From NCBI GenBank assembly GCA_034401795.1, contig CM067372.1, forward strand, positions 19,247,924-19,311,923: 64,000 nt of DNA, written 5' to 3'. The stretch is from Chaetoderma sp. LZ-2023a (taxonomy: Eukaryota; Mollusca; Caudofoveata; Chaetodermatida; Chaetodermatidae). Shown here one piece after another: positions 17,601 to 63,610 of this stretch (its first letter is position 1; every line of letters starts with the position of its first letter). The position numbers and the translations under genes were made by a program. The notes under the pieces are model-generated. The model made no database searches, was not told the DNA's origin, and worked only from the letters and a program-made list of their open reading frames with translations.

Positions 17601-19592
17601 CAAAACTGCAGCAAAACTCATTGCAAATGATGTCAAATCCATTGTTATTCCATATGACACCTACCCAGCCATAGACTGTATGGCAAATGCTGACTCTACT
17701 GTGAATTATATTCCTAAGACACTGCGAGTACTTTTGAAACTATGATTGCTGGTAAAAATGTCGATGTAAAGCTTGCATCGATTGGACAATCTGGACATGC
17801 AAGCAATACGACCGAGGGCCATACTAGCGCCACGTCAACTGAGCCTCAGGGTCCAGATGCACCATCACTTCGCATCACGGTTTCTGACAGACACACTTAA
17901 TGTACATGGTTTCTCATGTTCCTATGCTGAGGTAAAACGATATGAATGAAGTGCGGCAGTTCGACAAGAGACTGAAATACATAGAAATACACATGGACAT
18001 ATTATTCAATATTGTGCAGACAATGTAGATCATAATGTAGCAACCATCGATGGGACAGGGACATTCCATGGGATGGATATAATAGCTGCTGTTACACCAC
18101 GAATACAAGCCCAGAGTAAACCTATTCCCAAGGTGCAGGTGGCAACTTCAGATATTGCTGCAGTTGGCAGGATAAACATTGAGTATTTTAAGATCCTTCC
18201 AACAATCCAACCTCTCACCTATCTACCGCTTGTACACATGGCAGTAGAAGATCCTACATCACAATTAGATGTGCTATCTAAGACCTCCCTACTTCTTCAC
18301 ATGCCAAGGCCAGCATGGTCGGGCATGATGCAGATGTTACATCATGGTCAATACGCTGGGCAATCTTCTGTAATGTTCCTCTAAATGATTGACATTGATC
18401 CACGTGATCCATCCTGTGTCTACTCTACGCTAAGATTTGTTTCCTCCCAGGCTAGGAAATATAATGTCACACCCGTACTCACATTCGACCAACCATTATA
18501 CTGGAGTCTTTTAAAACAATTATTCGGTCTCAGCCAATTGACAGTGATCTCACGCACATTGTCAGACTCGGAGGATTCCAGATGGAGATGAGCTTCCTGA
18601 GGAGCATTGGGCACCTTATGTCAGGCTCAGGACTGCAAGAACTACTTGAGATCGTATATGCTAGCAATATTGTGAGCCATATGCTGTCTGTGTCCAGAGC
18701 AATGCGCGGTCACATGCTGGTAGATGCTGCACTGAACACAAATCTTGTGGCCAATGTATACAATGTGCCTGTACCAACCAAAGAGACAGTAGAGAACACC
18801 GGTGTTGAGATAACCAATGATAGTCTTGAGATAGATGCAGTAGGGATGCGGGTTAAACAAGATATTGTCACAGCGTACTTAACCTCAGAAACAGAACTGT
18901 ATGGGCGTGCAGTATCTTCTGAATTGTCTGTGGACGAAGTTTGTTCAGCAGAGGTATTAGTGAGAGTCCAAGGTAAACTAAATAAGTATAAGGAAATGAT
19001 GACTATGCGGACAGCAATACTCTGGATACAATATTTGAACATGGTGGACATCCTGAATAACTTTCTGAAAGCTAAGCTGACAGGCAACTCGAGATTACAC
19101 CTTCAAGCAGTCCGAGAAATGTTACCGTACTTTGTGGCATCTGGACACACACTATATGCCAAATCTGCATACATTTACCTGCAACTGATGCATCGTCTTC
19201 CAGAAGCGCATCCAGATATCTACCAGAAATTTGAGGACGGATACCATGTGGTGAGGGGCAGTGACAGATATTGGGAAGGACTCTCAACAGATCTCATTAT
19301 TGAGCAGGTACTAATGAGAAGTGTCAAGATACATGGGGGTTTGACAAGTGGAAAAGGAATGACAGAGACCCAGCGGTTAGTGTGGGTCCTCTCAATACCT
19401 CCATGCACAGCCATCAACCAGACCATACAGAATTTCAGCGGTGTCCCATATGAAACAAGTGACCAGCACAAGGACACATCAACAGCTAGACAAGCTAGAG
19501 ATGTCAGTGCCAGTATTGATCCTACCAGCTATCTCAGAGAAAGATCCATTCATTGGGAATACACCACTGCTTAAGGTTGCTAATGACATGAC
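17601..19592 (+). pseudogene. XPG-type transposase family, copy A (left part)
   Basis: Middle domain of the protein family shared with copies B-D. It begins at TAAKLIAND, next to the microsatellite, so the N-terminal Cys modules are missing. Recognisable blocks in order: LRVLLK and KLASIGQ (17720-17800), a conserved ADNVDHN / GTFHGMDIIAAVTP block (18015-18105), MPRPAWSGMM and IDIDPRDPSCVYSTLRF (18300-18440), then a 330-codon open frame 18582-19574 with SIGHLMSGSGLQELLE, RAMRGHMLVDAALNT, YVVRGSDR-like VVRGSDRYW, EQVLMRS and GGLTSGKGMTET. Stops and frameshifts lie before 18582 and near 19500. The reading frame is cut at 19592 by a BEL/Pao LTR and resumes at 37521. Family membership rests on alignment with copies B and D and on recall of similar uncharacterised metazoan proteins. 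The transposase role is inference. Confidence 0.8.
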
Positions 19593-40975: not shown

Positions 40976-42098
40976 GGTGATTGTGGTGGCGTTGATGATT
41001 GAAATCCTTATATGTTCCATGCATTCACTTTTAGCACAGACATTCCTGTAACTGAGAAATTATCTGAAAGCAATCTTTTATCTGCGGCCCATCAGACATG
41101 GTCTCTTTACTTACATCAGGTGTATGTTTATGGATACTTAAATCCAGGTGCTAATGTCTCTGCTGACAAGGTGCAATCATTACCGAGATTGCTGCCAAGA
41201 AATACCAACCCTCCGTAATAGCTACAGACAGCCATTAGTAAATCTGTTTTGTAACCATAGGGTATTCAAATGTAGCAATAACCACGGAAATAGATAAACA
41301 TACACAGATGTTCGGCGCCATTATTTACGCAAAGTGTCTAGCAGTTTAGTGTTGATAATTCACGAACTCTTTGTTAATCTAAAGTCATCGATTATGTAAA
41401 GTGGGTTCATAATAAATCACGATTTACTTTGCTGATTTTCCATGTTCGATTCAATGGCGAACGCATTATTACTTTATTTCATTCAGAACAATGTTAAATC
41501 TAATTTTGACTGGATTGTGTTAATTGTGGAATGTGGGACTGTTTGCGATTTACGTCATTATGCGCTATGAAGCTATGCCAAACATGGATAATAACTGCCA
41601 GTTAAGTAATAAAACCACGATTTTATTGTAAGTTATACATCGCAGCATTCCGATATTCATCACCGACACGAGACCGGCAGGTATGGCGAAGCAACGATAC
41701 AATACTATTTGCTCAATGTTGGTGGGGTATGGGGTGTGTGTGGGGGTGGGCGGGTGCAGGGGTATTTGAGCACTATCTCCCAGGATTCAGTGTTGGCGGG
41801 ATATCGGAGTATAATTTGGCGATAGTATGAAACAGTTATTCAAATCAGTCCTTGCGTCATTAACCTATAGCAGCATGATTTCATTTTATCACACAAGATC
41901 TTTGACGTATTCAATCTCATGAACAAAACGTTGCTTACATATTCTATATGGGCTGGGGTCACATGAACAGAGGTGTCTGAGAGGACTTTTGGGACATTGC
42001 TTAAAGTCGAGGACAAAGTCTTAACTTGTGAAAATCAATGAAGCAATTGGCATGCTGTATATATTAGTCATGGTCAAAATACGGTGTCCAGATATAGA
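40976..42098. other. Intergenic, nothing supported
   Basis: A 68-codon plus frame at 41012-41218 is unfamiliar. The rest is AT-rich with no recognisable element end. Confidence 0.5.
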
Positions 42099-42099
42099 T

Positions 42100-42446
42100 T
42101 TAAAGGTGCATCGTCAAACGAGAATGCTTGAAAAGAAAATTGTTATAATTGTATTCTTTTATAGGCTTAAATTATGTGTCTATATGTAATGAAACGAAAT
42201 AAATTTTAACATATGATGATTTCATTCCATATAGATTAATGTAATTGTTTAGGTTGTGAAATTGAAATAGAGGCTCGTGCCTCTATTTCAATTTCGCAGC
42301 TTAAAGAATTATATTAATCTATATGGAATGAAATCATCATATGTTAAGATTTATTTCGTTTCATTACATGTAGGTTTAAGCTTCTAAAAGTATATAATTT
42401 AAACAATTTTATTTTCAGTAATTATGCTGTGAATATGCACCTTTAA
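42100..42446. mobile_element. Palindromic MITE (AAGGTGCAT family), copy 1
   Basis: Near-perfect foldback centred at about 42272. The arms include GAAATAGAGGC at the loop and CATATGATGATTTCATTCC further out, and end in AAAGGTGCAT / ATGCACCTTT. TTAA sits at both outer edges (42100-42103 and 42443-42446), which would suit a piggyBac-type target, although TTTAAA could also be part of the arms. A related copy is at 62467-62800. Confidence 0.85.
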
Positions 42447-43530
42447 AACAGTATATGAACTGCTATGAATTTGGAGTTGGTAACACACATATGTTTATAT
42501 ACAACATAATGACATCTTACATATGACCTGGTCACAAAACACTGTAAGCAATACATGTTGGCTCTATCTGACACCCTCGTCAGCTCAATCAGGTGTGTCA
42601 AACACTGATCTATGTAAAGAACAAAGCGAATCAGTTAGTACGTCTTGGCTAAGTTTGAGAAATTACAATTGGTCAAATCCATTACATTTATGACTATAAC
42701 TGATTCGCTAATATATAGTATTATAGTGCGATTTCTCAAACTTAGTATACCTACTGACTTTGCAATATGATTAATTAACAGACTTATCCAAATGCTCTAA
42801 ACTGTGTATACGGTCGACATGTATTTGTCTGGCATGTAGGAACACCGGGAAATGAGTAAGTTCGACAAAACATAGCTTACAAATGTCAAATCAACATTAC
42901 ACCGTATCATAAATAATATCTTGATATGTAATATAACGTTGAAATTCCATCTATCGAATATCGGCGCAAAGAGGAATTAACCGAATACTTCACTCCTGGA
43001 GACGACATTAGAATATGGCAGATTCCAGACAAAGAAAATACGCGAAGTGTGGCTAACGGTTGCAACACGCGCCAACAATAATGTTGACGCGTAGCAGATC
43101 TGCTCAGATACACAGCCAGGGGCATACCGAGGTCCTACTGATATTGTCTGCCATGTCAGTTGCAAACATTGTAACTAGCTGTGCGTTCTCCTCGTATAGA
43201 CCTCGTTATCTTCGTGGTATATATACGTACAATAATCTTCCAAGTAATCTACTGCTTCCAACAGGAATATGTTACATAACGACGGTATATACAAGTTAGA
43301 ACAAACAGCCAGGATGCGAACATTTGCGTTCTGTGGATTTGATTATTCGCCACGTGTGTTGGCAGTCCTATGCCGGAACAATCGACCGAAGCTTCAAGGT
43401 ATGCTTGACAGGTGCTGATGGAATTTTGAAATCGCTTCATGGCCTTGATTCATCCCGAGGGTTTTCGACAATATTTTGCTTTTCAAGGCTAGAATAACAT
43501 TAACAAACCTGGACTAGATTTCTTAAATCT
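42447..43530. other. Intergenic with interleaved inverted motifs
   Basis: No gene. GCGAATCAGTTA (about 42627) and TAAGTTTGAGAAAT (about 42651) recur inverted at about 42699 and 42730, in an interleaved rather than nested order. Confidence 0.55.
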
Positions 43531-43770
43531 GTCTCACACTAGGAGACCATTTCCATGGGAGTAGATGGAAGTATGTGCGGATGATTGAGAGCGTGAAATA
43601 GTCGCTAATAGTCTAGTCGTAGTAGCCAGTTTTGGTGGGTCAACCTAGACAAAATTCCCACCTAAATCTTTTTTGTGTCATTCGATATGTAAGGTCACCC
43701 AGAAGCACATATTAAAAATCCCCATAGATCCCTTTTGGGCGGAACTTTTGGCGAGGGTTTGAATTTGAGC
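43531..43770. repeat. Left terminal inverted repeat of the copy B element
   Basis: Outer block TCTCACACTAGGAGACC and inner block GACAAAATTCCCACCT through GGGTTTGAATTTGAG, both matched in reverse complement at the right end. Confidence 0.75.
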
Positions 43771-44124
43771 ATGTTTTTATTTTCTTCTCAAACCACTTTT
43801 ATAGATATCTTAAATCTATGTTCACGATCTTCTTTAAAATCATATCTAACATCTCATTTGTCGTATTACCCTTAATAATACATTGTTAAGGTATCTCATG
43901 ATAGATTTAATTTGAATTTGAATTTGAATATCTAGTTGTTAATAATTTAAATTATATTTGTTCCAGGGTAAATTTAGAAAACTCGTTATCAAGTAAATCA
44001 AACGTCATCTATGCGAAGTCATAATTATACAGAGTGTGTATAATGACTTGACTTCATTCTTCTTGAAACAATATAAAATACACATCGTGGTCATATTCAT
44101 TTCAACACGAGTATCATTGATACG
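43771..44124. other. 5' leader of the copy B gene
   Basis: AT-rich, non-coding stretch between the left TIR and the first ATG. No promoter can be assigned. Confidence 0.5.
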
Positions 44125-46722
44125 ATGAGTGGAATTGATTCTACTGATAGTGGCAGTGAATGTGACAGCGCTATACACGAGGAAAACTGCGTGATCTGTT
44201 TGCAGCCATTTGAGAAATGCGACCCTCCAATTCCTGTGACGAGATAGGGTCTTGAAATACTAATCCGTTTCAGTGATATTCGAAATGATGAAGAACTGCA
44301 TCGGTATATGGTTAACAAGAGTGACGCTACACCTATGGGCAAAATGCTTATTCATGCTGGCTGTAAAAAGAGATACACTGACCCCAGGAAAACCAAAGTC
44401 GGGTTGCCGGAAGTAGCACGATCCCCCAAAAGATTAGCATCCTCTACTCCACATCCATTCGACTGGAACACTGATTGCCTCTTATGTGGGGCAGAGGCGA
44501 TAATAGATAGAACGCATCCAGATAGGGTTGTTATCATGTCTGTGCATAAATTAGAGCTAAGGAAGAGTATAGAGGAACACTGTGACAGTAGGTCCGATTA
44601 CTGGTTCCTTGAGATCCGCACTCGCCTCGAGAGTTGTATAGATTTAGTTTCAGAAGAAGTAGTTTATCATCGTTTTTACTAAAGGAAGTTCATGCGCACA
44701 TTATCGACCTGACAGGCCATGGGCCGACCTGTTGACGACGAAATGGGACATTGGTTTGAAGTCTTGTGCAATTGGCTAGAAAATGTGTGTGAATTAGAAT
44801 CATACACAATTGTTGATCTTCATGCGATAATGGTGGAGTTAGCAGGTGATGTGGCAGTATTTTGTCTGAAGACACTGAAACGAAAGCTCAACGAGCATTG
44901 TTATTATGGTGATCATGCATTTTTCGCTGAAGTATTGGGTAGGAACGATGTTGTTTGTTTTCGCAATACGGCAAATTACATCATCAATGGAAAGTGGTAC
45001 ACTGAAAGGCATGACAACGCTGAACAAGTGGTCAATCGAATCGTAACAGCCGCTGCACGAATTACATGCGAAGAAGTGCGAGAAGCAACTCTTACCCAAG
45101 GATGTATAGGAAATTCGAAGAGGAAGGCTACCATACGGTACGGAGAAGTGATCGTCTATGGTCTGGACTGTGGATTGATTTCGTTATAGAACAGGTTCTG
45201 ATGAGGTCACTGAAAAGCTGTGGTGGACTGACTCGAGGAAGGGGCATGACTGAAAGCGTGAAGCATCATTGGGTCTACAGTATGCATGCGTGTGCTACTG
45301 TGCATGATGCCATGCCCAGTCTGACAGGGAAGCAACACCTTACGAGCGATCAACATGTGGACATGGGAAGAACTAGACGCGAGCAAGTACACACATTAGA
45401 TGACCCTAAACCGGGAATCAAGATTGATAAACAAACTGAGCGAATTGATCCATCGGTTTTGTTCATGCGATGTACTGCACTAGTGCAAAGAGAAGATGAG
45501 GATATTCTTCCTTACGTTAGACACGAAATGACTGCAGTTGCTACGTCGTTATTTAAAGAATAATAATCCATGAGGAAGTTGGATACGTCAGACGTGGCAA
45601 GAAGAATACAGATTGATCTGATAAACATCGACGAAGCTAAGTCCTCATAGCATGCCTGTGATAGTTGGGGGATGGCTTCTACATTACATAAGATGGCCAA
45701 AAAATACAACATATGTTCAGGTGCTTGAACAGTACAGTTCCTATCTTGAACACACGTAGAGAATGAGTTGCATTGTGTTTGATGGATATGAGGATGTTCT
45801 TTCAACAAAGGACAAGGAACAAGGTCGACGGCAAATAGGCAAGATCTCTGCTGATATATTGGTGAACGTCACAGTGAAGACTCATGGATAGACTGATAGT
45901 ATCAACGGCACTTGACTATGCGAGAAATGGTCAGCCAGTCATAGTTGTTGCTGAGGACACTGACATCTTTACAATGTTGCTGTATCACTGGGACGATAGA
46001 TTGGCAAACATTTTCTTGAAGAAGGAAGTGAAACGCTCAAAACATGAGCAATTGTATGGTCTCAAGGAAGCTGCTGATGCCATCCCAGCAAAGATACGAA
46101 AGCGTATAATAACAATTTATGCTCGGAGTGGCTGCGATACAACTTCTGTCACGTTTGGCTATGGTAAGACGAATCTTCTGAAGGTAATGTCTAAGTCCAA
46201 AGCGGTATATGATGTGTCTGATATAAACGGGAGTTGTGCCGCATCACAGGAACAAGTTGGCAGTGCAGGAATTAGCCTATTCCGGGGCCTGTATGGTGGC
46301 ACTGAGAAGGACATGCTTACTTCTCTGAGATATGCCCGATATATGCAGATGGTTGTGAAGGGAAGTAAGATAGAGACACAACGACTGCCACCAACTGAGC
46401 ACGCAGCTTACTTCCACAGCCTCCGCATGTCAGATGTCTAACTCTTACTAACGATGAACTGGTCCACAATGATTGGAGATGGAAAGAGGTACATGGATCT
46501 TTATGCCGGATAATGACAGATCTTGAAACTGCTCCAGCGAAGGTACTCAATTTCATTCGTTGCAAATGCAAAGTAACAACAAAGAATCCGTGTGGCACCA
46601 CTGCTAATGCAACAAAAACGGATTGAAATGTGTGATCGCATGTGCAGGGTGCCGAGGTCAAATTTGCAGCAACATCGACCACCTGATAACTATTGATGAA
46701 GAAAATGGTGGTTTGGACTTAT
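44125..46722 (+). pseudogene. XPG-type transposase family, copy B
   Basis: Putative DNA-cleaving transposase, broken. N-terminal zinc-like module CVICLQPFEKC with CKKRYTD (44188-44380), interrupted by TAG at 44245. Second module DWNTDCLLCGAE with THPDR (44461-44525). Stops at 44680 and 44710, then GRPVDDEMGHWFEVLCNWLE and CFRNTANYIINGKWY (44719-45090). The whole middle domain present in copy A is deleted near 45090. Coding resumes at YPRMYRKFEEEGYHTVRRSD, FVIEQVLMRSLK, GGLTRGRGMTESV (about 45222) and IDPSVLF. The C-terminal nuclease-like module has CIVFDGYEDVL (45769-), AEDTDIFTMLLYHW (45950-) and SGCDTTSVTFGYGK (46127-). These correspond to XPG-N, XPG-I and the helix-turn region of FEN1-type enzymes. 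A Cys cluster (RCKCK, CVIACAGCRGQIC) ends the protein near 46722. At least six lesions make it non-functional. Confidence 0.82.
45763..46441 (+). pseudogene. XPG/FEN1-like nuclease module of copy B
   Basis: Listed separately because it carries the functional clue. The first acidic motif is FDGY at 45778-45789, followed by a K/R-rich stretch (STKDKEQGRR) as in the XPG-N FDG..P..K...R signature. The second is EDTD at 45953-45964 in a hydrophobic context. The third is GCDTTS...GYGK at 46130-46164, the counterpart of the conserved SDY...GIG region of FEN1. A frameshift between FDGY and EDTD breaks the module. The comparison with XPG is from motif memory, not a database search. Confidence 0.68.
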
Positions 46723-46982
46723 AATCTCATGTCATCGCAGGGCACATCCCGACCTCAAAGCGTGTGTTAATGAGCATCTATACTATCCTCAATGATAATC
46801 GTGTTTCTCTTCGCTGACACCTGTGCATCTCAGCTGTTGAGTGATAAGGAAAAATTTTAATTTGTTTACATTTGTATTTATTTCAGATTGTTGAGTGTGG
46901 TGTTTTGTTGGAAAATATCAAATGACGTTGTTTTCCGCTACCATGGCACCTTATTAGATTTCACACATGCTGTAAAAATGGT
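46723..46982. other. 3' region of the copy B gene
   Basis: Non-coding sequence between the last recognisable codon and the right TIR. Nothing else seen. Confidence 0.55.
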
Positions 46983-47420
46983 CCTCAAATTAAAACCCGT
47001 GTAAAAAATTCCGCCCAAATTGGATCAATGGGGATTTTTAGTATGTGATTCAGGATTAATGTCTGCTTCGAATGACACCAAAAAACCGTAGGTGGGAATT
47101 TTGTCACGGTTCAGACCCCTCAACGACTAGGCTATAGGTGGGAGAGAGCAAGTGGACAGCGTCCGCAAATCATGGTCGGTGGTGCTTGCTGAATGGACAA
47201 AATTGCCACCACATGCGCAAGCGTCCGCTAATGGTCTCAAATCGATTTCAACTCATTCACAACGTGTGAGAAGGGCGATAGCAATGACTCACAGTCCGCT
47301 AGCGGTCTCAAGTTAGCTCTTAAGAAATAGATAACACTCTCAAACCGAGTATACTTTGCAAGCAACCACCCGCGAGTGTGTATATAGCAATAGGTCGCAG
47401 GCGGTCTCCCAGTTTGAGAG
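46983..47420. repeat. Right terminal inverted repeat and subterminal repeats
   Basis: The inner inverted block spans about 46983-47105. From 47155 to 47412 several GTCCGC...GGTCTC motifs recur, ending in the outer inverted block GGTCTCCCAGTTTGAGA. Clustered subterminal motifs are typical transposase-binding sites. Confidence 0.7.
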
Positions 47421-48595: not shown

Positions 48596-49204
48596 ATGGA
48601 GACGGACTTACTCGGATCATCCACAACATGGGACAATGAAACCCGGTCTCTCATAGAATATTTGGCATCTGGTATTTTACCTGCCTCACAACGCTCAGCA
48701 CTTTCTATTCTTATGCAACAATCCGACTATGCCTTGATTAAGGGGGAGGGAGGGATGTTATTTCACTCCCGTGTGTCTAAAGCAAAACGCACTGGTCTCC
48801 ATTCGCAGTACCAGCTGGTGCTCCCTTCCTCCTTGGTCCCAAGTACATTACAATTGTTTCATGATTCCCCATTGGCTGCGCATGGTGGCATCCATGATAC
48901 TATTTACAGGATAAAAGAGCACTATTATTTTTCCCGTCTAGCAGCAGTGGTTTCTGATTATGTTAGATCATGTCGTGAATGTCAGTCTCGTAAGGTCACT
49001 AAAGTACATGTGAAAGACGCTATTGTTTCGTATCCTACCCCTGCATCCCCATTCTCAGTTTGGGAAGTTGATCTTTATGGGCCTTTACCATGCACATCTC
49101 GTGGCTACACGTACATACTAACAGCTCTTGTCTGGTTTTCTCGATTTCTCTTTGCCGTACCTATCGCTAACAAGGATGATGTTATTGTCTATTCAATAAT
49201 GTAG
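48596..49204 (+). pseudogene. Gypsy integrase fragment
   Basis: 202 codons. It includes the HHCC zinc-binding module (HDSPLAAHGGIHDTIYRIKE then CRECQSRK) and the first strand of the catalytic core (SVWEVDLYGPLP with the first Asp, YTYILTALVWFSRFLFAVP). It stops at 49202 before the second Asp and the Glu, so it cannot be active. The sequence is not close to the integrase of the 20-31.6 kb element and belongs to a different gypsy lineage. Confidence 0.88.
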
Positions 49205-51733: not shown

Positions 51734-52015
51734 GACTTGTTCCTGTGATGCGGCACAACTCCCGTTTATATCAGACACATCATGTACCGCTTTGGACTTC
51801 AGAAGATTCGTCTTACCATAGCCAAACGTGACAGAAGTTGTATCGTAGCCACTCCGAGCATAAATTGTAATTATACGCTTTCGTATCTTTGCTGGGATGG
51901 CATCAGCAGCTTCCTTGAGACCGTACAATTGCTCATGTTTTGAGCGTTTCACTTCCTTCTTCAAGAAAATGTTTGCCAATCTATCGTCCCAGTGATACAG
52001 CAACATTGTAAAGAT
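51734..52015 (-). pseudogene. XPG-type transposase family, copy C (antisense fragment)
   Basis: A 282-bp piece of the nuclease module, nearly identical to 45965-46262 of copy B but on the minus strand. It runs from TMLLYHWDDRLANIF to CAASQEQV. It differs by GYDTTS for GCDTTS and by a 12-bp in-frame deletion after NLLK. Both borders are abrupt and carry no TIR sequence, so it is a recent fragment transfer from a copy B-like source into the LTR locus. Confidence 0.9.
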
Positions 52016-55664: not shown

Positions 55665-56482
55665 TCAAGACCTCTGCTGAGGCCGGTCTTGGCCGGTTTC
55701 GTCCTGAAAAGAGTAAAGCTGTTGAAGTTGCTGCCACCAAGAGCTTCGCACACGTGTGGTTACACTTGGTTATACTTGGTGGGTTCCATGCATTAATGAG
55801 CGCAATCGGTAGAATCTCTCAGATAGTGCGAGGATCCGGAATAGATGAAGCTCTGGGTCAAATAGTTGACCCTAATGCTATCATGCACATATTGTCTGGC
55901 AACGCCATTGCGCGAACATTACCGGCCCTCTGTCTTCTTGATCACTGGATCTGATAACACAGACGTGTGGTGGTGATGACCGGGTCAATGACACAAGTCA
56001 GTCCAGTCTCACTACACAACATGCTGAGGATTTGCTAAGTTTGGTTCTTAGTGCCATTTTGAATGCTGATGCTCAAACACTTCAAGGTGATATTGTAAGC
56101 TCGCTCTTGACTTGTTAGTCAAACAAATGTTGTGAGAACTTAAAATCTCATTATCATCCCAGTCTAGAACCACGCAATTATGGATCAAATTACTAACGCA
56201 TATTTGAAAATAAAAGACTGTATTATTTGAGAGACTATAAGGGACTGGAATGGACATTTGAAAGCACCTAGTGCATTTTTAAAAGCTTATTCGCAGCGAC
56301 AGGGCATAGTCACTACACGACACGTACACAGCTTTATGAAAAATATGTAAAAGCTCCCAGAACATCATCTTTGAACACCAGCTTTGTCAGAGGCATGTGG
56401 AAGGCGCTGATGCTGTAGAAAGAACAGAACACTGTTTTAACGGACTCGGTCTCAAGTGTTTGATGAAGTGCGGCTTTACACA
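55665..56482 (+). pseudogene. XPG-type transposase family, copy D (5' part)
   Basis: Degenerate middle domain. FAHVWLHLVILGGFHALMSA and IVRGSGIDEALGQIVDPNAI with HILSGNAIAR (55745-55915) align with SIGHLMSGSGLQELLE...MRGHMLVDAALNT of copy A. LLSLVL-like LSAILNADAQTLQ follows at 56036-56090. Just before the minisatellite, VERTEHCFNGLGLKCLMK (about 56418-56471) corresponds to the VRRSDRYWEGL...EQVLMRS block with a deletion. Several stops and frame changes. The N-terminal Cys modules are absent, cut off by the foldback MITE. Confidence 0.68.
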
Positions 56483-57294
56483 TTGCAGCTTTACACATGG
56501 CGGCTTTAAACATGGCGGCTTTACACATGGAAGCTTTACACATGGAGGCTTTACATATGGCAGCTTTACACATGGAGGCTTTACACATGGCGGCTTTACA
56601 CATGTTGGCTTTACACATGGCAGCTTTACACATGGCGGCTTTACACATGGCGGCTTTACACATGGAGGCTTTACACATGGCGGCTTTACACATGGCGGCT
56701 TTACACATGGAGGCTTTACACATGGTGGCTTTACACATGGCAGCTTTACACATGGCGGCTTTACACATGGTGGCTTTACACATGGCAGCTTTACACATGG
56801 CGGCTTTACACATGGCGGCTTTACACATGGCAGCTTTACACATGGTGGCTTTACACATGGCGGCTTTACACATGGCAGCTTTACACATGGAGGCTTTACA
56901 CATGGCGGCTTTACACATGGCGGCTTTACACATGGTGGCTTTACACATGGTGGCTTTACACATGGTGGCTTTACACATGGCAGCTTTACACATGGCGGCT
57001 TTACACATGGTGGCTTTACACATGGCGGCTTTACACATGGTGGCTTTACACATGGCAGCTTTACACATGGCGGCTTTACACATGGCGGCTTTACACATGG
57101 TGGCTTTACACATGGCGGCTTTACACATGGTGGCTTTACACATGGTGGCTTTACACATGGCAGCTTTACACATGGCGGCTTTACACATGGCGGCTTTACA
57201 CATGGCGGCTTTACACATGGTGGCTTTGCACATGGTGGCTTTACACATGTTGGCTTTACACATGGCAGCTTTACACATGGCGGCTTTACACATG
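56483..57294 (+). repeat. 15-bp minisatellite inside the transposase GG[L/F]T motif
   Basis: About 54 copies of a 15-bp unit GGCTTTACACATGGC (GGCGGC, GGAGGC, GGTGGC and GGCAGC variants). 15 is a multiple of three, so the plus frame reads GGFTH or GSFTH over and over and runs straight into GRGLTESV. That is exactly the conserved GGLTRGRGMTESV motif of copies A and B. The array is therefore an expansion of the codons for GGFTH. All other frames are open too (AALHM, MCKAA, PPCVK). Confidence 0.95.
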
Positions 57295-57780
57295 GGCGAG
57301 GTTTGACTGAATCTGTGTGTCGCCAATCGGTGTACAGCTCTACCCATCTGTGTGTCACCAATCGGTGTACAGCTCTACCCAGCTGGGTGGGAATTCGTGA
57401 TGCAATAGCGACTAGTTCGCAAAGGACGATACGTACTTCTGAAAAAAACCGCGTAGATCTCGAAAGGACCGTTATCTCGCTGATCTTGATAAACTGTTAA
57501 ACTGGTTTAATGATCACACTCAATCCATCTGCAGCATTCCAGGACTTGGATACATTGCCAAGCGGGTGAGCAGCAGAGCATGAGGATGGTATCAAATGTG
57601 ATAGCACCCAGTAAGGTGGTTCCAAACAGATGAATACTGTGCCCTATAATGGTGCACAAATATTAAGCGATCTGAACAAATAAAGACTGCAAGATTTTCA
57701 AACTGGCGTCATATCACGGTGGGGCGAAACAAAACACTGCATATTGATCCATCTATTTTATTCAGTCAATGTTCGACCAT
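57295..57780 (+). pseudogene. XPG-type transposase family, copy D (central part)
   Basis: Begins GRGLTESV directly after the array. It continues with CTALPSWVGIRDAIA, matching the CTAINQTIQNFSG / CATVHDAMPSL block, then RTIRTSEKNRVDLERT, matching SDQHKDTSTARQ. After frame changes it reads HIDPSILFSQC (about 57740-57775), matching RIDPSVLFMRC of copy B. It is broken by stops and by the LINE-tail insertion that follows. Confidence 0.72.
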
Positions 57781-57894
57781 CTAAAAACATTCCTATTCAC
57801 TCAATCTTATTCACTAAATTAAATTTAATATTTTCTCATATTGTATGCGCCTAGAGCATGCTACTGCATGGAGTTTCGCGCGGTATAAATGTAC

Positions 57895-57926
<32 letters not shown>

Positions 57927-57927
57927 T
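57781..57927 (+). mobile_element. 3' tail of a non-LTR element ending in (ATT)n
   Basis: Ends TGCGCCTAGAGCATGC, then CGCGCGGTATAAATGTA and a TTA run. This is the arrangement seen at the 3' ends of many CR1/L2-like LINEs and dependent SINEs. It splits copy D. Only the tail is present, and its class is inferred from the pattern. Confidence 0.55.
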
Positions 57928-58650
57928 TATTATCTCACACAGAATTGATGACGGCTTGGACCCATATTTCGACTGAAAATGTATGTGGTTCCCCTATCCT
58001 CCTTCAAGGACAATTTCATGAGACATCCAGAGAAGCGTAAATTGCCTAACGCACTGTATATGGGTGTACGACGCGAGTCCGTCTGGTCTGCATTTGTTGA
58101 CGGATTTCGTGGCTTCTTCAATACCTAAGATGGAAATGTTACACTTATCAGGGAGCCTTGGGGCAGTAGGCCTACTCGTCATACCGCAAACATCATTTCA
58201 GCCAGTGTATTGTAGTATTCGATTTCAAATAAGGACCCCGAACAGCAGCGACGCAAATCAGATTGACTGCCCGCTGCCACGATAGAGGTGAAACCATCTT
58301 CTCGTCGGTACAACGACCAGGAAGCATTCTGCATGTGATAATACTGCAAATAAAGTTGCCGCTTCATTGCTATGTTCACCGGTCTCCTCAAAGCGAATAG
58401 TCATGTCATAAAATAAGCACTAACAGATGCTGATACATTGATTGCAGGTACCATACTAGATTTTACCAGGAATCAGCAAACTGTTGAAATAATCGTCAAG
58501 GTTACAGACATCATGCTGTCGCTTCTGCATCACAGGACAGATGATATGGCGAATACATACATTCATGATATCATCGGAAGAATAATACAAAAAACTAGTG
58601 GTCCCTTCCACAATCTATTCCATAAAGGATGTGCCATGAAAGCGTGACCT
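57928..58650 (+). pseudogene. XPG-type transposase family, copy D (C-terminal part)
   Basis: VPLSSFKDNFMRHPEKRK (about 57989-58040) matches the PPALF / SLFKE region. The second half contains NTANK and then DADTLIAGTILDFTRN with VIVKVTDIMLSLLHH-like sequence (58425-58535). This aligns with DRLIVSTALDYARN...EDTDIFTMLLYHW of copy B. The EDTD Asp-rich motif reads KVTD here, so an acidic residue is lost. Several stops. The GCDTTS motif is not found. Confidence 0.7.
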
Positions 58651-59340
58651 AATCATTAGAAAAACATTTTATTCCTACACGCATGTATGGCTGTATGTGG
58701 CACGGCATCTACAACACGTGTGCATAGCACGATTACCCGGATGAGAGCTCTAGCAAAGGACAACTCAATGAACCTTTCCATTTTAGCTATGTCACGCCCA
58801 TCTCTAGCTAAGCTCCACCCACACCACACTCGCTTTGGGATCGATCGATCCCTGAACTCCCTGACTATCAATTTCCAGAAAACTATACAGGTAACCTGTT
58901 GATTGTTTTGAAACTAATTTGATTTGGTACTTTTGCTATGTTTATTAAATAGTAGAGCCATACAACGTATCGGATTATTAGGCGTTAAAGACGGGCTTAA
59001 TTATGACGTTGACATACACGTCACGTAGTTGATTATGGCGTCATATGATTGGGTGAGGAAATGGATTCATGAATTCAAGCAATAGCTGGCATACTTTATG
59101 CCGCCGACACTAAGTGAGGAGGTGAAAAGAATCACTATGACGACCAGTCACTTTCACAAGTACCAGATAATGATGACGCAGCCACACATCTTGGAACCAC
59201 AGCGAATGCATACGATGGTACGAGCCCCACATTTCCACAGGTTCTGAGTATTTCTACAAATTATTCACTATGTGAAGTTGGATACTAAAATACTTGTTCA
59301 ACGTCCATGGTGTTAGAAACATTGTCGGTCTTTTAAAACC
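58651..59340. repeat. Dispersed repeats homologous to 12.6, 15.6 and 16.6 kb
   Basis: 58785-58890 resembles 16617-16735 (TAGCTATGTCACGCCC, then GATCGATC and CTATCAATTTCC). 58900-58925 is a foldback arm. 58935-59075 resembles the body of 12610-12790 (CACGTCACGTAGTTGATTATG). So one composite element here unites pieces seen separately elsewhere. Confidence 0.72.
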
Positions 59341-59350
59341 AGTACCTACG

Positions 59351-59401
<51 letters not shown>

Positions 59402-59404
59402 TGT
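59341..59404. repeat. (GTGC)n microsatellite
   Basis: Pure GTGC run. Cys/Val/Arg or Thr/His/Ala-rich frames through it are artefacts. Confidence 0.95.
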
Positions 59405-60034
59405 CGTCCGTACGTGCGTGTGTGTTGTTGGTTTTATTATTGGTACCGACGGATATTGAGACTGTGTGGTGAAATTCATTTGGTGCAAATGTAAAAACGA
59501 AAATCACAACCGATGTGGTACGAAGTTGTGCAGCTGTTTCAAGCATGGAAGCTAGTGTGTAGACGCTAGTGGAGGATGCGACGGAGTTACCAAACATTGT
59601 TGAAATTTATCTCGAAAAATAATTACTAGCCTATTGAAAAGGTCTAATCGACGATGAGAAGAAATATAAATTTTCTCGCAAAAATCGACGTCTTCTTGGA
59701 TCTTTCTATGATGCCGTCATTACACCAAGCTGATATGATGACATCAATAAAGGGTAATTCTTCTTATCATTTTCTCACATTACACCACCACTATAAGAGA
59801 CTAAGAGCAGAAACCCTGCATTGGGGATACTTTATACGACTTGTGTCCATGTGCGACTAAAGTCCAAAATTTAGTGTTGATAAAGAATTTCCTCAAGCCC
59901 CATCATTGGGATTTTTTTCTGACGCTGATTTAAAAAAAATAAGGACAGTTTTTCCTTTACTTTTTCCGGTAAACTTTCCTTTGATTGTCTAATCCTTGAA
60001 TTTGTTCAAGAAAATTTCAACTTTCTCATAGAAA
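59405..60034. other. Intergenic, no gene supported
   Basis: AT-rich. A 68-codon frame at 59654-59860 has no domain. Confidence 0.5.
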
Positions 60035-60155
60035 ATGTCCATTTGCAGACCAATAGAAGACAATTTTTGAAAATTTACCACTGGAATTCGGTGGTAAATC
60101 TTCAAAATTAGTATTATCTTGGTCTGTAAATGGATAGTTCTCAAGACCACTGTAG
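60035..60155. repeat. Foldback MITE, TCCATTTGCAG family
   Basis: TGTCCATTTGCAGACCAATAG and its partner TGGTCTGTAAATGGATA enclose a hairpin meeting at CCACTGGAATTCGGTGG. Related to 55537-55664. Confidence 0.85.
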
Positions 60156-62800: not shown

Positions 62801-63355
62801 TTTCCTGGGTTGCGACCAAAATTTTGGAACCTTAGTGTACGATCACATCCTTCCGTGTGTTAAAATTAGAGCCAAATCGGACAAGTAGTTTCCGAGATAG
62901 CCATAGATCCAGAATTTGGTCCGATCGGGATCCGGGTTCTGTTATCCGGATCAAGACCAAACTGTGCAAATCCTAGTGCACTGCAAGTTCCCTCCTTGTG
63001 CTCAAATTTTATCCAAAATCGGATGAATCACGTGTTATATGTCTGCATAGGGCTATTTTTCTCAATGGAGGCACAACTTGGGTGTTGGAATTATAAATTA
63101 AATTTTGCCAGTAACTCAATTTATTTTTCAGCAAAGAATGCAGAGTACAACCAACAAGTGACCATCGCCAAATGATTCCACATTTTTTTAATAAGCAAGG
63201 ATCTTAAATCTCGGTGCTATTGAATTTCCTTTAACACCGTGTTTCTTTGCTAAACGATTTTATGTTCAATAAAGACCGGTCTTTAACCCTGCCTGTGTCC
63301 ACTTGTGGTTTATAATGGTAAAACCCGCGGCCAATAATTCCTCGAGTTGTCTTGA
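62801..63355. other. Spacer with a diverged 141-bp direct repeat
   Basis: CTTAGTGTACGATCACATCC...CAAATCGGACAAGTAG (from 62831) and CCTAGTGCACTGCAAGTTCC...AAAATCGGATGAATCA (from 62972) align throughout, a two-copy diverged repeat. No gene. Confidence 0.6.
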
Positions 63356-63610
63356 GGACTGTCTATTTTCAGGCTAAGAGATGACTATTTTAGAAAATTG
63401 GCCAATGGTGATAAATTCAGTGATAAATTTTCAAAAATGTTCTCTTGACCTGCACATGCGCACTGACTTAACACAAATTTAGATTTCCTTGACCTTTGAC
63501 CCTTTAATCGTCAAACCGGGCAAAAACACCTCTTAAAACGATTTTCCTAAATTCCAGGTATAAACTTACAAAAACCCCAGCCTTCTCTTGGCCGGTAAAT
63601 GGGCATTGCC
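63356..63610. repeat. Diverged foldback MITE copies
   Basis: TTGAGGACTGTCTATTTTCAG...AAATTTTCAAAAATG...TTCTCTTGACCTGC and, further right, CCTTCTCTTGGCCGGTAAATGG are diverged arms of the TCCATTTGCAGGCCAAGAG family. Confidence 0.65.

Follow-up and report, generated by a model that had tools for sequence, protein, structure and literature searches.

An internally deleted DNA transposon of Chaetoderma with an XPG/FEN1-like module that fits the nuclease-encoding Academ lineage

Academ is counted among the DDD/E superfamilies of DNA transposons in section 3 of PMC9587614, and a RecQ helicase is mentioned in Academ in a passage of PMC3627910. In the part of PMC10045372 that deals with them, AcademX elements have target duplications of 3 or 4 bp and AcademH elements have duplications of 9 or 10 bp, and this is related to the encoded nuclease or helicase. 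Curated consensus sequences of bivalve Academ elements have a mean length of 5,565 bp according to a passage of PMC10294476. The stretch of 64,000 nucleotides analysed here (the window) comes from the mollusc Chaetoderma sp. LZ-2023a (assembly GCA_034401795.1, contig CM067372.1, positions 19,247,924 to 19,311,923) and contains an element, termed copy B, at 43609..47134 on the forward strand. We are confident that copy B, which is dead and has lost an internal part, derives from a cut-and-paste DNA transposon that fits AcademX, the Academ lineage that encodes a nuclease. In AcademX, this nuclease is of the XPG type. Judged by the features described in the literature, the element represents a new family within AcademX.

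Ends and target duplications

Copy B lies between inverted repeats that had been noticed in an earlier inspection of the letters (the sequence-only reading), and these repeats are real. Comparison within the window placed the inverted arms at 43629-43778 and 46975-47124, with GACAAAATTCCCACCT and GGGCGGAA falling within them, and the best local alignment of arm with arm pairs 43623-43769 with 46984-47134 at a score of 114; none of 500 shuffles scored above 29. Random placements with the same spacing reached this score in 2 of 1000 cases, both falling on the copy B locus, and in 1 of 500 in a separate set; the runners-up of the placement control scored at most 101, and the four that were inspected were three simple repeats and one inverted pair (score 70). 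Over 43623-43779, the alignment of the left with the right arm has 123 identities, 32 mismatches and 9 gap positions.

The exact ends follow from other copies in the window's own genome (G000, 2.44 Gb). Of 414 loose candidates for the left-end query 43531-44100, 40 were scored, one of them the window itself. The remaining 39 have 90-92% identity and begin at query positions 69-95, 37 of them at 75-82. At 19 other loci, the flanks are unrelated up to the word TAGTCTAG or near it, i.e. up to 43609; this word is altered in L004, L006, L009, L013 and L016 as well as in L002/L003, which are located on two contigs and resemble each other. With the right-end query 46850-47420, 40 matches were scored of 501 loose candidates, and all 39 other matches stop within query positions 284-293, the commonest stop, 285, corresponding to 47134. 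Because the genome copies start and stop there, the length of copy B, which is decayed, is set at 3,526 bp, with the termini TAGTCTAGTCG ... CGACTAGGCTA. Its terminal inverted repeats are at 43609..43779 (left, forward strand) and 46973..47134 (right, reverse strand). Placing the left end at 43623, where TAG/TAG would be the duplication, is ruled out, as the genome copies begin at 43609. The element had thus been drawn too wide in the sequence-only reading: the outer inverted block TCTCACACTAGGAGACC, which had been taken as part of it, and the GGTCTC motifs at 47233-47408, which had been regarded as subterminal, both lie outside, and at the respective end none of the 39 other scored matches reaches over them.

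Both junctions were readable in 18 copies, namely the window copy, L012, 11 of 20 fetched loci, and five pairs of short stretches that were fetched since both ends had appeared in the left- and right-end searches. Among the remaining nine fetched loci, no right end was found in eight, and L034 was dropped for its missing right terminus; L051 and L052, for which there are left ends only, were excluded from the count. Exact target duplications are present in 3-bp form in 11 of the 18 copies and in 4-bp form in 2, and the control, in which left flanks were combined with right flanks of other copies, gave 9 and 0 of 306, respectively. The duplications read are TTA, TAA, TAT, CAG, GAT, TAC, GAA, GTT, AAA, AACA and GTTG. 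The flanks mismatch in L025, L032, L035 and L049/L050, and the 4-bp match of L041/L042 depends on how the end is read, because the right end lacks its final A there. The window copy itself is flanked by TAA at 43606..43608 and by TAG at 47135..47137, presumed left and right remnants of the duplication that agree in two of three bases and were counted as non-matching. Terminal inverted repeats and target duplications, the recurrence of which in genomic relatives had been proposed as a check, are both shared by copies in the genome, with duplications of 3-4 bp.

Coding content and protein family

Between the arms, copy B encodes a protein that is split over three frames with stops. The closest full-length relative among the listed proteins, P0285 (1511 amino acids), is colinear with it at 44-74% identity by piece. 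On the forward strand, the N-terminal Cys/His modules at 44125..44679 (P0285 residues ~24-188; one stop) are followed by a winged-helix-like segment at 44722..45102 (~205-329), which reaches up to the deletion point at 45087..45102. There, as tblastn of P0285 on the window indicates, residues ~330-852 are gone, which are the DDE transposase core, a part kept in copies such as L028. The post-core segment at 45087..45629 (~853-1103) contains a helix with the presumed catalytic Glu. The XPG/FEN1-like module at 45625..46498, the fold of which is taken from relatives, is in pieces (~1107-1192 and 1231-1430) and additionally short of ~38 residues between them, and the C-terminal CXC cysteine cluster lies at 46444..46706 (~1421-1509). 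All motifs that the sequence-only reading had named are present, i.e. the Cys pairs, FDGY with its K/R stretch, EDTD, GCDTTS..GYGK and the C-terminal Cys cluster; the split over three frames and the loss of the core had gone unremarked in that reading.

Three protein database searches, in which scoring was limited to the ~8,000 candidates with the most words in common, gave 203, 700 and 405 proteins at E <= 0.001, and the best 120 of each were listed. Among the matches listed, the named sources are sea urchin, sea cucumber, bivalves, a gastropod, corals, sea anemone, sponge, sea spider, fish and hagfish, and the named relatives are labelled as uncharacterised, hypothetical, unnamed or CXC-domain proteins. 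Seven acids of the XPG module are invariant in 95 of 95 full-length relatives, and so are the core acids D449, D452, D620 and E887. The seven acids were mapped to FEN1 positions via the order of the motifs and the EXO1 alignment, with the usual FEN1 residue numbering. The predicted fold of the EDTD/GCDTTS segment of relatives is that of the XPG/FEN1 nuclease catalytic core and not an unrelated one, just as had been anticipated, and a profile comparison with EXO1 matches the module. A match to Pfam XPG_N, XPG_I or PIN, where support had also been sought, was not obtained at E <= 1 with three pieces of copy B and 9 + 28 relatives, and it is the fold and the EXO1 profile match that stand in its place. 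For the DDE core of relatives, VIA-align of predicted structures points to P-element, Hermes and RAG1 folds.

Scans with Pfam and NCBIfam gave no family above cut-off. The best Pfam match is DUF6589 (E 3.5e-06, 26.4 bits at a cut-off of 27), found in 10 of 28 members scanned; 20 other Pfam families match weakly among these 28 members (best E 0.0071), and helicase families are not among the Pfam matches. DUF6589 is a Pfam family of unknown function. Its matches to P0127, P0073, P0001 and others fall just under the cut-off and lie in the core region, and it may be a relative of this DDE core. It is a precomputed domain in three listed proteins, P0016, P0073 and P0127, and was not matched in P0016 by the direct Pfam scan. 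A whole-word search of the literature found no paper on Academ with XPG and nuclease, nor one on DUF6589. Viral and prokaryote genome contigs gave 55 and 73 pattern matches, respectively, none of which tblastn confirmed as a relative.

Relatives in the genome and other features of the window

P0285 matches in 19 of the 20 fetched loci, always in two or three frames with stops, and not in L036. L028 retains 1392 of the 1511 P0285 residues, those of the core among them; its element measures ~5.87 kb and has the duplication TAT. Searched at the protein level, with 31 of 19,479 candidates scored, the genome gave 43 matches. Ten of these are 37-38% identical to P0285 over nearly the full length and look like a second family; four of the ten are stop-free. 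The chosen sample L053-L056 comprises three of these four stop-free loci and one locus with a single stop. The other three are 99.3-99.7% identical to L053 over ~5,387 bp, the element of L053 itself being ~5,385 bp long, and the frames are uninterrupted over 1484, 1482 and 1484 codons in three, with one stop in the fourth. Their ends start with TAGTCCAGT, the terminal inverted repeats of complete members start with TAGYCYAGT, and 3-bp duplications (CTA, TTA, TTA, AAA) were read by eye in all four. Recent movement of this young family is likely. Differences between its copies (L054 left out) have no bias to silent ones that would indicate purifying selection, with silent/replacement counts of 6/23 for L053-L055, 4/10 for L053-L056 and 10/31 for L055-L056, as expected for copies that drift after insertion. 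Complete members in the genome are ~5.4 kb long, with a target duplication of 3 (sometimes 4) bp and a single uninterrupted gene of ~1,480 codons, in which N-terminal Cys/His modules and a winged-helix-like part are followed by a P-element/hAT-like DDE core, an XPG/FEN1 nuclease and a C-terminal CXC cluster, the folds being predicted.

The window holds further pieces of this kind. Copy D, an inverted XPG-module fragment at 51735..52015 on the reverse strand, 5.6 kb from copy B, differs from it by 4 mismatches and 12 gap positions in 293 columns, and the next best match among 21 other loci is 87% over at least 280 columns; copy D is probably a local inverted duplicate of copy B that was made after the insertion. 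Copy A at 17602..19505 (forward strand), a remnant with the DDE core and the segment after it, belongs to another family and shares 46-48% identity with the L053 protein. The protein family has a third remnant at 55700..59585 (forward strand), which has core (55700-56368), XPG (57955-59310) and CXC (59466-59585) parts in order. Elsewhere in the window, a fold-back at 42086-42460, in which two inverted repeats (95 bp, 93%; 86 bp, 76%) are nested around 4 nt, resembles a miniature inverted-repeat element, an inverted pair of ~112 bp at 60040-60151 and 63345-63458 (3.2 kb apart, score 70) is not a simple repeat, and an open frame at 48596-49204 resembles, by its motifs, a retroelement integrase zinc finger with the start of the core.

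Mechanism, alternatives and comparison with known systems

In transposition, the N-terminal modules would bind the element ends, and the DDE core, the fold of which is predicted and the acids of which are conserved, would cut the transferred strands and join them to target DNA 3 bp apart. The XPG module may cut or trim 5' strands, acting on the non-transferred strand during excision, on flaps once joining has taken place, or on both. It had been suggested that the XPG nuclease may perform the strand cleavage; the XPG/FEN1 fold is indeed predicted, but cleavage and joining of the strands are most likely carried out by the DDE core, which copy B has lost, and the XPG part would be a second nuclease. 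We tentatively consider, at somewhat less than even confidence, that the XPG module could be the dedicated second-strand nuclease of a one-protein transpososome, in which cleavage and joining of the transferred strand fall to the DDE core and the FEN1-type domain recognises the branched end and cuts the non-transferred 5' strand, a TnsA-like role. In Tn7, it is TnsA that cuts the non-transferred 5' strand, with a fold unrelated to XPG. Such a second-strand role, if true, could explain why duplications have 3-4 bp in the nuclease lineage and 9-10 bp in the helicase lineage.

That the protein is the transposase of an Academ-like DNA transposon is supported by the shared ends, the 3-4-bp duplications and the XPG fold. 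It weighs against this assignment that the fold matches of the DDE core are not significant by Foldseek, and this weak superposition lowers our confidence very slightly. The likeness to Academ is one of features described in the literature, and the core matches no Pfam family above cut-off (DUF6589 being the best, as given above), which would suit a superfamily of its own, in which a DDE core and an XPG nuclease were brought together independently of Academ; this is unlikely, as the duplication length, the nuclease and the element length (~5,385 bp in L053, close to the bivalve mean of 5,565 bp in the passage of PMC10294476) agree with AcademX. Even less probable is an XPG module that alone is the transposase, with the DDE-like core as a structural relic. 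The invariance of the XPG acids in all 95 full-length relatives would be in line with it, but the four core acids are likewise invariant in all of them and the core has the predicted fold of the P-element transposase; copy B does retain the larger part of the XPG module and has lost the core, but its retained parts are uninformative on what is needed because copy B is dead.

The labels of the listed named relatives would also be compatible with a host gene family, a domesticated nuclease that came to lie between inverted repeats by chance. In one genome, however, each end has 40 scored matches (from 414 and 501 loose candidates), the ends are fixed, there are target duplications, and decayed copies occur alongside young ones that are nearly identical and lie at different places, which makes such a coincidence extremely improbable. 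With the assignment to an AcademX-like transposon, many animal proteins that are called uncharacterised in databases are now tied to one kind of transposon, and the active-site acid set of their XPG module is kept complete. As there are also near-identical uninterrupted copies in one genome, the role of a flap nuclease in transposition is now directly testable.

Among the described systems, P-element and hAT (Hermes) transposases have, like the predicted structures, a DDE core of RNase H fold in which the last acid is preceded by a large insertion, one that is typical of these transposases; they are not known to have an XPG module, and their target duplication is 8 bp. FEN1, EXO1 and XPG are similar in fold, in the order of seven carboxylates, in the basic stretch after FDG and in the GxGK hairpin after the last Asp, but here the module is embedded in a transposase, identity in the aligned rows is 11-16%, and the Pfam models miss it. 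Kolobok includes lineages with a DDE core and a downstream nuclease, but with TTAA duplications and other nuclease folds, as described in section 3 of PMC9587614, and TTAA is not among the duplications found here. AcademH belongs to the same superfamily, if the Academ assignment holds, but has a helicase and duplications of 9 or 10 bp in the account of PMC10045372, whereas here there are a nuclease and 3-4 bp. With AcademX, compared by described features, no difference was found, and the element shares with it the duplication of 3 or 4 bp, terminal inverted repeats, a DDD/E transposase, a nuclease, a length of ~5.5 kb and the occurrence in animals, as far as these are given in the relevant passages of PMC10045372, PMC10294476 and PMC9587614.
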